Shown here piece by piece: positions 57,926-62,828 of a stretch of 64,000 nt of DNA; the stretch's first letter is position 1, and each line of letters starts with the position of its first letter. Below the pieces are notes generated by a model that worked only from the letters and a program-made list of their open reading frames with translations, was not told the DNA's origin and did not search any database. The translations under genes and the position numbers were made by a program. Location of the stretch: contig NZ_FWXX01000002.1 in assembly GCF_900176475.1 (NCBI RefSeq), positions 1-64,000 on the forward strand, written 5' to 3'. The stretch is from Tropicibacter naphthalenivorans (GTDB lineage Bacteria; Pseudomonadota; Alphaproteobacteria; Rhodobacterales; Rhodobacteraceae).

Positions 57926-58486
57926 TTAGACGCCGCGTGCCAAGGCGGCCACGCCGGTGCGCGCCACTTCTTCGAGGCCAAGGGGGCGCATCAGATCGGC
58001 AAAGGCGTCGATCTTGTCCGGGGTGCCGGTCAGCTGAAAGACAAAGCTTTCCAGCGTCGAATCGACCACATGCGCGCGAAAGATGTCCGCAAGGCGCAGC
58101 GCCTCGACGCGTTTTTCGCCGGTGCCCGCGACCTTGAACAGCGCCAGTTCCCGCTCGACAGAGCTGCCCTCGACGGTCAGGTCATGCACTTCGTGGACCG
58201 ACACGATGCGGCCCAGCTGCGCCTTGATCTGTTCGATCACCTGCGGCGTGCCCGAGGTGACGATGGTGATACGGCTCAGGTGGCCCTGGTGGTCGACTTC
58301 GGCCACGGTGAGGCTGTCGATGTTATAGCCGCGGCCCGAAAACAGGCCGATCACCCGCGCCAGCACGCCGGGTTCGTTTTCGACCAGAACGGCCAAGGTG
58401 TGGCTTTCGGTGACGTCCGAAAAGTTGGGACGCAGGTTGTAGGCAGAGTGCTTGCTCGAGCCTTTCTTGATCTTCAGCGGCGACAT
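57926..58486 (-). CDS. ilvN: Acetolactate synthase small (regulatory) subunit
   Basis: The 186-residue protein has an N-terminal ACT domain (HTLAVLVENEPGVLARVIGLFSGRGYNIDSLTV) that binds valine for feedback control, and the C-terminal domain (ALFKVAGTGEKRVEALRLADIFRAHVVDST) typical of IlvN/IlvH. It pairs with the large subunit encoded at 60422-62176. The two are separated by a histidine kinase gene on the other strand, which is unusual because they are normally adjacent. It has no attenuator of its own that I can see. Confidence 0.93.
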   Translation of the reverse strand: MSPLKIKKGSSKHSAYNLRPNFSDVTESHTLAVLVENEPGVLARVIGLFSGRGYNIDSLTVAEVDHQGHLSRITIVTSGTPQVIEQIKAQLGRIVSVHEVHDLTVEGSSVERELALFKVAGTGEKRVEALRLADIFRAHVVDSTLESFVFQLTGTPDKIDAFADLMRPLGLEEVARTGVAALARGV

Positions 58487-58634
58487 TTCGGGCGATCCCC
58501 ATCGTGATATCTGTGGTGGGGTACACTAGCCGCGCCCCCCGCAAATGACCAGAAGCCACGGCCAAGAATTTTTGAAAGCGAATATTAGGAAGCTGCGGGT
58601 ATGGCTGTGGTGGAGATTCTGGCGCGGAGAGCGG

Positions 58635-60293
58635 ATGGAGCGTGGTCAACAGCTTAACGACGGGACCGAGCCGGCACAGCCTTGCCCCGGCGAAGGCTGT
58701 GCGCCCTTGCGCGATCTCGAGGCGCAGCTGCGCCAGCGCAACGCCGAACTGGAGGAAAAGAACCGGCTGCTCACGGATGTTTTGGAAAACATGGGCGAGG
58801 GGTTGCTGGTCACCAGCAACGAGGGCGGCGAGATCGCCGACAACCGCATCCTGCTTGTGAACACCGCCTATAAGCGCTTGTTTGGAGTGACGGATGCGGA
58901 TATCGCGCCGGGAATGCGGGTGCGCGACTACGTGGCGTTTCTGGCGCAGCGCAGCGATCCTGACGGGGTTCAGACGCGGTTTCGCACCTTGACCGAGGCG
59001 TTGAAAAAGCGCGAGCCGGTGACCATGGACATCCCCAGTCAGGGAAAGCATTTCCATACCAAGGCGGTGTCGACCGCCAGCGGTGCGCGTGTGTTGGTGC
59101 ACACCGATGTGACCGAGCTTCAGCACCAACACGAGGCGCTGCGCTCTGCCCGCGATGCGGCCAAGGTGGCGAATCTGGCCAAGAGCAACTTTTTGGCGAC
59201 CATGAGCCATGAAATCCGCACGCCGATGAATGGCATCGTCGGGATGGTCGAATTGCTGGCAGAGACGACGCTGGACGAAGAGCAATCCGAATTCGTCGAG
59301 ACGATCCGCTCTTCGGCGCTGGCCCTGACCTCTTTGATCTCTGATATCCTCGATTTCTCCAAGGTCGAGGCGGGGCATCTGGATATCGCGGCCGATCCGT
59401 TTGATCTGCACGGTCTGCTGCACGAGATGTGCGATTTGCTGACGCCGCTCGCGGATGCCAAGCAGATCGCCCTGCGGTGTCAGATCGCGCCGGACGTGCC
59501 GCAATATGTGGTCGGGGATGCCTTGCGCCTGCGTCAAGTGCTGCTGAACGTAGTGGGAAACGCGATCAAGTTCACCTCGGACGGCAGTGTCAGCGTGCGG
59601 GTGGCGCACCGCGAGGACGTGGTGTTCACCGTGACGGACACGGGCATCGGCATCCCGCAGGACCGCTTGCCGCAGATATTTGCGCCCTTCGAGCAGGTCC
59701 ACAGCGGGCACAGCCGCGCATTCGAAGGCACGGGGCTGGGCCTGGCGATTTCGAAACAGCTGGTGGACGCGATGAACGGGCGGATCGCGGTGCGCTCGCA
59801 TGAGGGGCAGGGGACAGAGTTCCAAGTCAGCCTGCCCTTGCCGGAACGCGACGCTGCGCAGGATTTGGCGCAGCCGCCGGACATTCCCGACGACATCTGG
59901 ATCGAAGGGATGCAGATCCTGTTGGTCGAGGACAATCAGACCAACCAAATGGTGGTGCGCAAAATGCTGGAACGGCGGGGGGCGGCGGTGACCGTGGCCA
60001 GCAACGGCCAGCAAGCCATTGATCTGTATGATCCCGAAGCCTTTGATGTGGTGCTCATGGATATTTCGATGCCGGTCCTGACGGGGCTGGAGGCTTCGCG
60101 CCACATCCGCGCGCGGGAACATCTGAACAACTGGCCGCACCGGCCGATCATCGCGCTGACGGGAAACGCCTTTGCCAAGGATCAACACGAGGCGATGTCC
60201 GCAGGCATGGATGGGTTTTTGTCCAAACCCGTGCGGCGCGATGCGCTGCTGTCGGCGGTTGTGCTGCACATGGAATTGGCCAAGAAACGGTAG
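58635..60293 (+). CDS. Soluble hybrid histidine kinase with PAS and receiver domains
   Basis: The 552-residue protein has a coiled-coil segment (CAPLRDLEAQLRQRNAELEEK), a PAS domain (about residues 50-165), a HisKA helix with the phospho-accepting His in NFLATMSHEIRTPMNGIVGM, an HATPase domain (NVVGNAIKFTSDG, DTGIGIPQDRLPQIF, GTGLGLAISK), and a receiver domain (ILLVEDNQTNQMVVRKML, DVVLMDISMPVLTG). No membrane segment is visible, so it senses a cytoplasmic signal. The ATG at 58635 follows GGAGAG; the longer start at 58545 has no ribosome site. It sits between ilvN and ilvB on the opposite strand. Confidence 0.86.
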   Translation: MERGQQLNDGTEPAQPCPGEGCAPLRDLEAQLRQRNAELEEKNRLLTDVLENMGEGLLVTSNEGGEIADNRILLVNTAYKRLFGVTDADIAPGMRVRDYVAFLAQRSDPDGVQTRFRTLTEALKKREPVTMDIPSQGKHFHTKAVSTASGARVLVHTDVTELQHQHEALRSARDAAKVANLAKSNFLATMSHEIRTPMNGIVGMVELLAETTLDEEQSEFVETIRSSALALTSLISDILDFSKVEAGHLDIAADPFDLHGLLHEMCDLLTPLADAKQIALRCQIAPDVPQYVVGDALRLRQVLLNVVGNAIKFTSDGSVSVRVAHREDVVFTVTDTGIGIPQDRLPQIFAPFEQVHSGHSRAFEGTGLGLAISKQLVDAMNGRIAVRSHEGQGTEFQVSLPLPERDAAQDLAQPPDIPDDIWIEGMQILLVEDNQTNQMVVRKMLERRGAAVTVASNGQQAIDLYDPEAFDVVLMDISMPVLTGLEASRHIRAREHLNNWPHRPIIALTGNAFAKDQHEAMSAGMDGFLSKPVRRDALLSAVVLHMELAKKR

Positions 60294-60303
60294 ACCCGCG
60301 CGC

Positions 60304-60357
60304 GGCCAAATTCCTTGAACAAGGAATTTGCAAATCTCTTAGATAAGAGATTTGGCC
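60304..60357. repeat. Double-hairpin repeat, copy 3 (inverted)
   Basis: On the minus strand: stem AAATCTCTT/AAGAGATTT then AAATTCCTT/AAGGAATTT, flanked by GGCC on both sides. Relative to copies 1 and 2 the first stem has a T to C change in one arm and the compensating A to G in the other. It lies between the hybrid kinase gene and ilvB. Confidence 0.85.
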
Positions 60358-60360
60358 CCC

Positions 60361-60395
60361 GCAAAACAAAAGGCGCAAGTGAAACCACTTGCGCC
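60361..60395 (-). terminator. Terminator of ilvB
   Basis: GGCGCAAGTG (60372-60381) pairs perfectly with CACTTGCGCC (60386-60395) around a 4-base loop. On the minus strand TTTTGTTTTGC follows. Confidence 0.85.
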
Positions 60396-60421
60396 AATCG
60401 CTTGTCTTACTTGAGATGGCC

Positions 60422-62176
60422 TTAGACCAGCACGGCCCCTTTGGCGCCGATGGCGTCCTTGGTCGAGGCCTGGCCCAGCAGCATCTTGTTGTGCGGCTCG
60501 CCCGACGGGATCATGGGGAAGCAGTTTTCGTGCTTTTCCACGAGGCAGTCAAAGACCACCGGGCCGTCGTATTTGATCATCTCCATGATCGCGTCGTCCA
60601 GGTCCGCCGGATCCGAGATCGAGATGCCCTTGCAGCCGAACGCCTCGGCGAGCTTGACGAAATCGGGCAGCGATTCCGACCACGAGTGCGAGTAACGCTC
60701 GCCGTGCAGCAACTCTTGCCACTGGCGCACCATGCCCAGACGTTCGTTGTTCAGGATGAACTGTTTCACCGGCAGCATGTATTGCACCGCGGTCCCCAGC
60801 TCTTGCATGTTCATCAGCCAGGACGCTTCGCCCGCCACGTTGATCACGAGGCTGTCGCGATGCGCCATCTGCACGCCAATCGACGCCGGGAAGCCGTAGC
60901 CCATGGTCCCGAGGCCGCCCGAGGTCATCCAGCGGTTGGGGTCTTCGAAGCCCAAATACTGCGCCGCCCACATCTGGTGCTGGCCCACTTCGGTGGTGAT
61001 GTAGCGATCCATGCCCTTGGTCAACGCCTCAAGACGGGCAAGCGCGTGCTGCGGTTTGATGGTCGGGCCGTCCTGTTTGAAGGACAGGCAATCGACGGCC
61101 TTCCACTCTTCGATCTGCGCCCACCACTTGGCCAGGCCCTCGCGGTTGACCTTGCGGCCACGCGATTTCCACAGGTTCAGCACGTCTTCGAGCACATGGG
61201 CGATGTCGCCAACGATCGGGTAGTCCGCCTTGACAACCTTGTTGATCGAGGACGGGTCGATGTCGATATGCGCTTTCTTCGAGTTCGGGCTGAACGCATC
61301 GAGGCGGCCGGTGATCCGGTCGTCAAAACGCGCGCCGATGTTGATCATCAGATCGCAGCCGTGCATCGCCATGTTCGCCTCGTAGAGGCCGTGCATCCCC
61401 AGCATCCCCAGCCAGGACTTGCCCGACGCCGGGTAGGCGCCCAGACCCATCAGGGTCGAGGTGATCGGGAAACCCGTCGCTTCGGTAAACTCACGCAGCA
61501 GCTGCGAGGCCGCCGGGCCAGAGTTGATCACGCCGCCACCGGTGTACAGGATCGGACGCGCGGCATTTTCCAGCGCTTCGACCAGCGTCAGGATCATCTC
61601 CTGATCGCCCTTGAGCTGCGGCTGGTAATGCGAGGTGTTCACCTTTTGCATCGGCTGATACTGCGCGCTTGCGAACTGCACATCCTTGGGGATGTCCACC
61701 AGCACCGGACCCGGACGGCCAGAGCGCGCCACGTGGAAGGCCTGGTGGATCGTCTCGGACAGCTTTTCCGTCTCTTTCACCAGCCAGTTGTGTTTGGTGC
61801 AGGGGCGGGTGATGCCCACGGTGTCCGCTTCCTGAAAGGCGTCAGAGCCGATCATAAAGGTCGGCACCTGGCCGGACAGAACCACGATCGGGATCGAGTC
61901 GAGCAAAGCGTCGGTCAGGCCGGTCACAGCGTTGGTTGCGCCGGGGCCAGAGGTCACCAGCACGCAGCCAACCTTGCCGGTCGAGCGGGCATAGCCTTCG
62001 GCCATGTGCACGGCGCCCTGTTCGTGGCGCACCAAAACGTGCTTGATGCCGTTTTGCTGAAAAATCTCGTCATAAATCGGTAGTACGGCACCGCCGGGAT
62101 AGCCGAATACCGTGTCCACACCCTGATCCTTGAGGGCTTGGACTACCATTTTCGCTCCGGTCATTTGACGTGTCAT
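60422..62176 (-). CDS. ilvB: Acetolactate synthase large (catalytic) subunit
   Basis: The 584-residue thiamine-diphosphate enzyme makes acetolactate or acetohydroxybutyrate, the first common step of valine, leucine and isoleucine synthesis. Visible are the N-terminal TPP and glutamate region (GVDTVFGYPGGAVLPIYDEI, EQGAVHMAEGYARSTG), FAD domain motifs and the C-terminal TPP/Mg region LVINVAGEASWLMNMQELGTAVQY. The usual Mg ligand Asp of the GDG motif is replaced by Glu here (AGEAS), probably normal in this group. It is preceded by a leader-peptide attenuator and a promoter. Confidence 0.95.
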   Translation of the reverse strand: MTRQMTGAKMVVQALKDQGVDTVFGYPGGAVLPIYDEIFQQNGIKHVLVRHEQGAVHMAEGYARSTGKVGCVLVTSGPGATNAVTGLTDALLDSIPIVVLSGQVPTFMIGSDAFQEADTVGITRPCTKHNWLVKETEKLSETIHQAFHVARSGRPGPVLVDIPKDVQFASAQYQPMQKVNTSHYQPQLKGDQEMILTLVEALENAARPILYTGGGVINSGPAASQLLREFTEATGFPITSTLMGLGAYPASGKSWLGMLGMHGLYEANMAMHGCDLMINIGARFDDRITGRLDAFSPNSKKAHIDIDPSSINKVVKADYPIVGDIAHVLEDVLNLWKSRGRKVNREGLAKWWAQIEEWKAVDCLSFKQDGPTIKPQHALARLEALTKGMDRYITTEVGQHQMWAAQYLGFEDPNRWMTSGGLGTMGYGFPASIGVQMAHRDSLVINVAGEASWLMNMQELGTAVQYMLPVKQFILNNERLGMVRQWQELLHGERYSHSWSESLPDFVKLAEAFGCKGISISDPADLDDAIMEMIKYDGPVVFDCLVEKHENCFPMIPSGEPHNKMLLGQASTKDAIGAKGAVLV

Positions 62177-62210
62177 ACTGTTTCTCCGTTCACGACACTG
62201 CGTTATGCGT

Positions 62211-62284
62211 ATAAAAAAGCCCCCGTCCGGGTTGGCGGGGGCGCATGGGGTCCTGTTAGGGAAACCGTTACCGGCCCATGCGCC
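62211..62284 (-). promoter_or_regulatory. Transcription attenuator of ilvB
   Basis: On the minus strand, antiterminator arms GGCGCATGGG (62284-62275) and CCCATGCGCC (62249-62240) are perfectly complementary. The terminator arms GCCCCCG (62242-62236) and CGGGGGC (62225-62219) are followed by TTTTTT. The two structures share bases 62240-62242 and exclude each other. The first antiterminator arm lies in codons 11-14 of the leader peptide. Confidence 0.8.
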
Positions 62285-62315
62285 AAATTCCTACAATTAC
62301 AAGCAGGGTGCTCAT
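62268..62315 (-). CDS. ilv leader peptide
   Basis: A 15-codon frame, MSTLLVIVGIWRMGR, with an AAGGAG nine bases upstream. Six of residues 4-10 are Leu, Val or Ile (LLVIV, then I), the amino acids made by the downstream enzyme. A ribosome stalled on these codons leaves the antiterminator arm free; one that reaches the stop covers it and allows termination. Too short to appear in standard gene calls. Confidence 0.8.
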   Translation of the reverse strand: MSTLLVIVGIWRMGR

Positions 62316-62343
62316 ACCCGAGTGCTCCTTAATACGCGCGTGG

Positions 62344-62372
62344 ACATTATGTCCGGGGCGGGGCAGCGTCAA
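62344..62372 (-). promoter_or_regulatory. Promoter of the ilvB leader
   Basis: On the minus strand TTGACG (62372-62367) and TAATGT (62349-62344) are separated by 17 bases, with transcription expected near 62337, about 22 bases before the leader peptide ATG. Confidence 0.65.
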
Positions 62373-62627: not shown

Positions 62628-62828
62628 ATGACCCGCAACATGTTTTACCGCGATTTCACCCTGTGCAAGGCGACGGCTCTGGTGGGTCTGATGGCCTTGG
62701 CCGCCGCTTTGGGGGGCGTGCCGCATCCCCATCTGGATCAGGCCGGGGCCGAGTTCGAAAGCTACATCCAGCCGGTGTACCTGATCGAGCAGTCCGACTG
62801 CGACAGCGCCAAGGGCACGCTTCTTTAA
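62628..62828 (+). CDS. Small secreted hypothetical protein
   Basis: A 66-residue protein with a hydrophobic stretch near the N-terminus (ATALVGLMALAAALGGVP, a signal peptide or anchor) and a short tail HPHLDQAGAEFESYIQPVYLIEQSDCDS. I do not recognise the family. AGGAGG lies upstream of the ATG with normal spacing. Its stop abuts the stop of the convergent response regulator gene. Confidence 0.6.
   Translation: MTRNMFYRDFTLCKATALVGLMALAAALGGVPHPHLDQAGAEFESYIQPVYLIEQSDCDSAKGTLL

Follow-up and report, generated by a model that had tools for sequence, protein, structure and literature searches.

A well-conserved candidate ribosome-mediated attenuator with a 15-codon branched-chain leader peptide upstream of ilvB in Tropicibacter naphthalenivorans and related Rhodobacteraceae

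In enterobacteria, ilvGMEDA (leader gene ilvL) and ilvB (leader gene ivbL) are preceded by leader peptides rich in isoleucine, valine and leucine, and stalling of the ribosome on the leader selects an antiterminator over a terminator. An earlier note on the locus studied here had presented attenuation of ilv genes as enterobacterial knowledge and its own leader as a compact alphaproteobacterial form. The 15-codon leader is indeed there, but two papers (PMC4117421, PMC1273637) indicate that such attenuation was already known in alphaproteobacteria. In its account of Caulobacter crescentus ilvBN, PMC4117421 describes leader attenuation with tandem isoleucine and valine codons, crediting Tarleton et al. 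1994. In the second paper, from 2005, an alphaproteobacterial 'ilvB leader peptide' appears among elements 'previously described', citing Vitreschak 2004, and the same citation accompanies a Sinorhizobium meliloti 'ilvIH cis regulatory' element in PMC2573895. For Corynebacterium ilvBNC, a uORF attenuator with an ilvB-II motif is mentioned in two further papers (PMC10272879, PMC11857589), and a ribosome-mediated attenuator has been proposed for cysS in Rhodobacterales (PMC8632094).

We analyzed the first 64,000 nucleotides of contig NZ_FWXX01000002.1 of T. naphthalenivorans (the window), in which ilvB (60422..62176, minus strand, ATG at 62176) encodes the large subunit of acetolactate synthase, as judged from its open reading frame and the Pfam domains TPP_enzyme_N/M/C. 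The region 5' of this gene very probably acts as a ribosome-mediated transcription attenuator, with ilvB as the regulated gene. The promoter, ribosome site, 15-codon leader, antiterminator arms and terminator with T6 tract listed by the earlier note were all found on the minus strand, in that order and at the positions it gave. A −35 element TTGACG (62367..62372) and a −10 element TAATGT (62344..62349) are separated by a 17-nt spacer, with CATAAT and a 15-nt spacer as an alternative reading of the −10. TTGAC precedes 155 of 158 aligned leaders, and TTGAC with a suitably spaced −10-like hexamer was found in 135 of the 158, against 0.4% in shuffles; transcription would start near 62337. The Shine-Dalgarno sequence AAGGAG (62325..62330) lies 9 nt 5' of the leader ATG, and similar sequences are present in 149/158 leaders. 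The leader peptide MSTLLVIVGIWRMGR is encoded from the ATG at 62315 to the TAA at 62268 (62268..62315), a reading supported by the sequence and by relatives. A short ORF with its own ribosome-binding site is consequently placed between promoter and ilvB, as an attenuator requires.

Codons 4–8 of the leader, CTG CTT GTA ATT GTA (Leu Leu Val Ile Val; 62292..62306), are the proposed regulatory codons. The antiterminator 5' arm GGCGCATGGG falls within leader codons 11–14 (62275..62284; sequence and alignment), and the 3' arm CCCATGCGCC (62240..62249) is supported by sequence, alignment, folding and covariation in diverged members. The last three bases of this 3' arm are the first three of the terminator stem. 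Two small hairpins sit at the antiterminator junction: CCG[GUAA]CGG (62265..62274), with the leader stop codon in its GNRA-type loop, and TCCCTAACAGGA (62251..62262), seen in the predicted fold. The putative intrinsic terminator, GCCCCCG...CGGGGGC followed by T6 (62213..62242), lies ahead of ilvB, as expected of an attenuator, and combines a covarying stem with a U-tract. Because a consensus promoter and terminator scanner flagged neither element at the leader, both were judged real by their conservation. The predicted fold of the 141-nt leader region was better than that of all 200 dinucleotide shuffles (z −3.4), and the window holds one exact 9+9 arm pair, where 0.30 occurrences are expected with up to 3 mismatches allowed.

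Downstream, the gene for the acetolactate synthase small subunit, ilvN/ilvH (57926..58486, minus strand; Pfam ALS_ss_C and ACT_AHAS_ss), does not follow ilvB directly: a gene for a hybrid histidine kinase lies between them in convergent orientation (58545-60293, plus strand; HisKA, HATPase_c and Response_reg domains). The two ilv genes are adjacent in nearly all named relatives and are parted by the kinase gene here (57926-62176); this kinase follows ilvB in just two (L036 and L073) of 80 named loci. Transcription of ilvN would either come by read-through, antisense to the kinase gene, or require a separate promoter. A divergent short ORF (62631-62828, plus strand, about 66 codons) with a hydrophobic, signal-like N-terminus lies upstream of the leader promoter, and similar sequences were found in three loci only (L014, L008 and L011).

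To compare relatives, as the earlier note had proposed, we first identified IlvB in 149 genomes sampled from the family, 148 of them matching strongly, and also at 80 named loci; 222 non-redundant upstream regions were then searched for a leader ORF of 9–24 codons with at least four Leu/Val/Ile within six codons. Such an ORF was present in 196 of the 222; five were removed by eye as spurious, leaving 191 for analysis, 190 of which have a T-tract, mostly 40–54 nt past the leader stop. Most of these roughly 220 relatives therefore carry the leader, and the arm motif GCGCATGGG...CCATGCGCC[CT][CT]CG (searched as GCGCATGGGN{6,28}CCATGCGCCYYCG) occurs in 88 of the 149 family genomes, its count matching one per ilvB copy with zero hits in the reversed control. 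Most sampled Rhodobacteraceae have a leader of the form MxxLVVIVGxxRMGR-stop located 120–170 nt 5' of ilvB; its start codon alternates among ATG, GTG and TTG, and the frame and the length of about 15 codons are kept. One genome (G024) has two ilvB copies (L026 and L236), and a separate leader with the arm motif precedes each.

Of 190 genomes sampled across the class, four have the arm motif, and three of these belong to the same family. Since few of 60 class-wide ilvB loci have a comparable leader (e.g., L253 and L288), the canonical form is mainly a trait of Rhodobacteraceae, with scattered relatives elsewhere in the class. Several lineages have no leader, among them Paracoccus (L090-L092), where neither a leader ORF nor a terminator was recognised upstream of ilvB though relatives have both, suggesting an apparent loss of the attenuator.

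Codon usage in 146 leaders was compared with that of the ilvB genes of the same loci. GTA makes up 51% of leader valine codons (5% in ilvB), CTA 37% of leucine codons (2%), ATT 52% of isoleucine codons (15%) and GGA 67% of glycine codons (6%). Among 136 leaders of 15 codons, positions 4–8 almost always encode Leu, Val or Ile, and outside the start and the C-terminal RMGR, leader residues are 27% Val, 14% Leu and 11% Ile, compared with 8%, 8% and 6% in IlvB. The Leu/Val/Ile-rich codons that the earlier note had matched to the products of acetolactate synthase are thus a regular property of these leaders, which favour the codons of the pathway's end products, as those of an attenuator should. 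Valine is the likeliest main signal read by the leader, to judge from the valines at codons 6 and 8, which are the most constant (84–85%).

The C-terminal RMGR of the peptide is 95–100% conserved, which could point to a conserved peptide, or the terminated leader RNA, acting in trans beside or instead of attenuation in cis. There is precedent in rnTrpL/peTrpL of Sinorhizobium, since the trp leader peptide and sRNA of S. meliloti have trans functions (PMC7298713, PMC10117765), and termination in the ilvB leader would free a small RNA about 125 nt long. RMGR is, however, encoded by the antiterminator arm, and its conservation is explained by the RNA pairing of that arm. Because the peptide end differs where the arm differs, we argue for a constraint on the RNA and not on peptide function, and regard a role in trans as unlikely.

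Pairing was counted in an alignment of 105 leaders. In the antiterminator with its inner small hairpin, 94% of cells are paired and five pairs show double-sided changes (0.7 in shuffles); for the terminator the values are 99.7% and four pairs (0.4 in shuffles). Shifting the partner by 1–3 columns caused a sharp fall in pairing in both. The hairpin CCG[GUAA]CGG is paired in 96% of cells, with double-sided changes at all three of its three pairs. In most relatives the leader stop lies in a GUAA or GUGA tetraloop of this covarying hairpin; few leaders end in UAG, which does not fit the GNRA pattern. Arm pairing was also stronger with the true partner than with swapped ones in a set of 27 diverged leaders (−18.9 vs. 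−15.0 kcal/mol; z −6.2, 0/5000 permutations). The terminator halves likewise fitted their own partners better than swapped ones (z −14.5). The parts of the element, their order, geometry and conservation and the pairing of both alternative helices are therefore direct observations from sequence and comparison. In one window taken alone, short ORFs and stems could have come together by chance; this reading is refuted by the family-wide conservation and covariation, nothing beyond the window favours it, and we give it a negligible probability. To this extent the earlier note's core proposal, that ilvB is preceded by a ribosome-mediated attenuator whose leader peptide is rich in branched-chain residues, is borne out: peptide and arms are conserved and both hairpins covary.

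The conserved multi-branched junction of the antiterminator, with its small hairpins, is a trait of many riboswitches, and a metabolite- or protein-sensing leader (a riboswitch or the target of an RNA-binding protein), with the short ORF incidental, was also considered. In a scan of the leader against Rfam 15 no family reached its gathering cutoff. Rfam RF02502 (Atu_C8) gave a weak full-length match of 28.8 bits against a gathering score of 50 and was rejected, as its sole above-cutoff genome match in the class sample adjoins LysR-like and transporter-like ORFs, not ilvB. Against direct sensing by the RNA, the ORF keeps its frame, its length and its Leu/Val/Ile codons while these three residues swap freely, rare codons occur specifically at those residues, the stop codon lies just beyond the antiterminator arm, and diverged members retain both the codons and the arm pairing despite a changed RNA sequence. 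We consider such a leader very improbable, and ribosome-mediated attenuation by far the better reading.

The earlier note had also called the two hairpins mutually exclusive. This holds over bases 62240-62242, the only three at which antiterminator and terminator overlap; elsewhere it does not, as a 7-bp antiterminator can coexist with the complete terminator. In the folding models, only the three bottom pairs of either stem exclude one another: in predicted fold A all 10 bp of the antiterminator form and the terminator is shortened (−33.7 kcal/mol), and in predicted fold B the terminator is complete and the antiterminator has 7 bp (−35.2 kcal/mol). Over the 105 leaders the fold with the complete terminator is favoured by 1.1 ± 1.6 kcal/mol, and equilibrium folding favours the complete antiterminator in 21 of them. 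Alignment column 134, common to both helices, changes from G to A in a single sequence (L129), and there each partner column (86 and 158) has U, which preserves the two pairings. The three shared bases and this triple change amount to the competition between antiterminator and terminator that attenuation demands. Since the hairpins are predicted to coexist, and the complete terminator is slightly favoured, one might suppose a constitutive partial terminator that sets a fixed level of ilvB expression independent of amino acids. That reading leaves the conserved Leu/Val/Ile codons, the rare-codon bias and the conservation and covariation of the arms unexplained, and it carries very little weight beside attenuation. 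Given the equilibrium preference for the complete terminator, the attenuator switch must rely on folding order or on a special weight of the lowest terminator pairs. The antiterminator would work by forming first and withholding exactly those pairs that adjoin the U-tract.

In leader coordinates the core of the antiterminator 5' arm occupies nt 33–41, the regulatory codons nt 10–24 and the stop nt 46–48. With a ribosome footprint of the usual size, a ribosome at the stop would cover the 5' arm, one stalled at codons 4–7 would leave it free, and one at codon 8 would just touch it. Masking the 5' arm, to mimic a ribosome at the stop, gave the complete terminator in the predicted fold, and both the coordinates and the masking are consistent with a ribosome that covers the arm at the stop and frees it at the regulatory codons. 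We infer that the leader is transcribed and translated and that stalling on it responds to amino acids as follows. On an RNA begun near 62337, a ribosome would load onto the 15-codon leader. With charged tRNAs for valine (and also leucine and isoleucine) in good supply, it would reach the stop at 62268 and cover the antiterminator 5' arm; the terminator stem would then close down to the U-tract and RNA polymerase would stop near 62213. Under shortage of a branched-chain amino acid, the ribosome would instead stall at codons 4–8, mostly at the rare GTA, CTA and ATT, and leave the 5' arm free to pair with the 3' arm ahead of terminator completion. Bases 62240-62242 would thereby be held from the lowest terminator pairs, beside the U-tract, and polymerase would continue into ilvB. 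A trp-type 1:2 pause hairpin 5' of the antiterminator found no support, its own pairing being weaker than swapped pairing (z +4.9), and a classical trp-type attenuator with such a hairpin was rejected on this ground. It follows that an untranslated leader should read through, not terminate.

A further helix may involve the read-through mRNA. The strand GCGTATTAAGGAGC (62324..62337, minus strand), which includes the leader Shine-Dalgarno, could pair with GCTTTTTTATACGC (62207..62220, minus strand), composed of the terminator end, the U-tract and the following bases, and this helix is present in the minimum-energy fold of the leader. An unbiased window scan of the 5' leader against the terminator surroundings gave one clear hot spot, the Shine-Dalgarno region against the U-tract and beyond (about −1.1 kcal/mol own minus swapped; overall SD 0.24), with part of this energy signal carried by the reversed-strand control. 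Position-free stem counting detected nothing beyond neighbours (own minus neighbour 0.04 ± 0.08). A register-aware score restricted to flanking bases exceeded the full set of swaps at p 9e-6 and the nearest-neighbour swaps at p 1e-3, the reversed control being null (p 0.3 and 0.9), and strong helices were counted in 30 of 179 leaders (11.7 expected). Because these controls are mixed, phylogeny enters the p-values only by way of the neighbour control and the test was tried in several variants, we keep the helix as a modest new lead, not a proven one: on read-through mRNA the U-tract and the bases that follow may be the pairing partners of the leader 5' end and ribosome site, with supporting extra covariation in a subset of genomes. 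Tentatively, and at somewhat less than even chances, the read-through ilvB message would fold its 5' end, including the leader Shine-Dalgarno, onto the U-tract and the bases beyond it once polymerase has passed the terminator, and not before, which would stop leader translation and shield the 5' end of the message. If so, the leader would act as a sensor only during its own transcription.

The attenuator provides a well-supported regulatory annotation for ilvB across an abundant, mostly marine bacterial family, at an element with no matching Rfam family and a 15-codon gene missed by gene callers. With GTA and CTA, both rare, so strongly preferred, the leader is a clean natural case in which to ask how attenuator sensitivity depends on codon choice. 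As a simple two-hairpin switch it also offers two concrete points for testing: the overlap of three bases and, on read-through RNA, the possible helix at the 5' end.

Compared with the enterobacterial attenuators, the leader here has only 15 codons, a pause hairpin is unsupported and the competing helices have three bases in common. Outside the Proteobacteria, ilvBNC of the actinobacterium Corynebacterium likewise has uORF-controlled attenuation ahead of ilvB, as described in the sources cited above. Caulobacter crescentus ilvBN (ilvIH; Tarleton, Malakooti and Ely 1994) is closer, being also from an alphaproteobacterium and comprising acetolactate synthase genes with a Rho-independent terminator under ribosome pausing, as described with ribosome profiling in PMC4117421, through which it is known here. 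The alphaproteobacterial ilvB/ilvIH attenuators predicted by Vitreschak et al. 2004, known here through the citing papers (PMC1273637, PMC2573895), share gene, class and mechanism. The ilvB leader of T. naphthalenivorans is, in this company, an ordinary and well-conserved element, a well-supported case of a long-known mechanism already reported in alphaproteobacteria.
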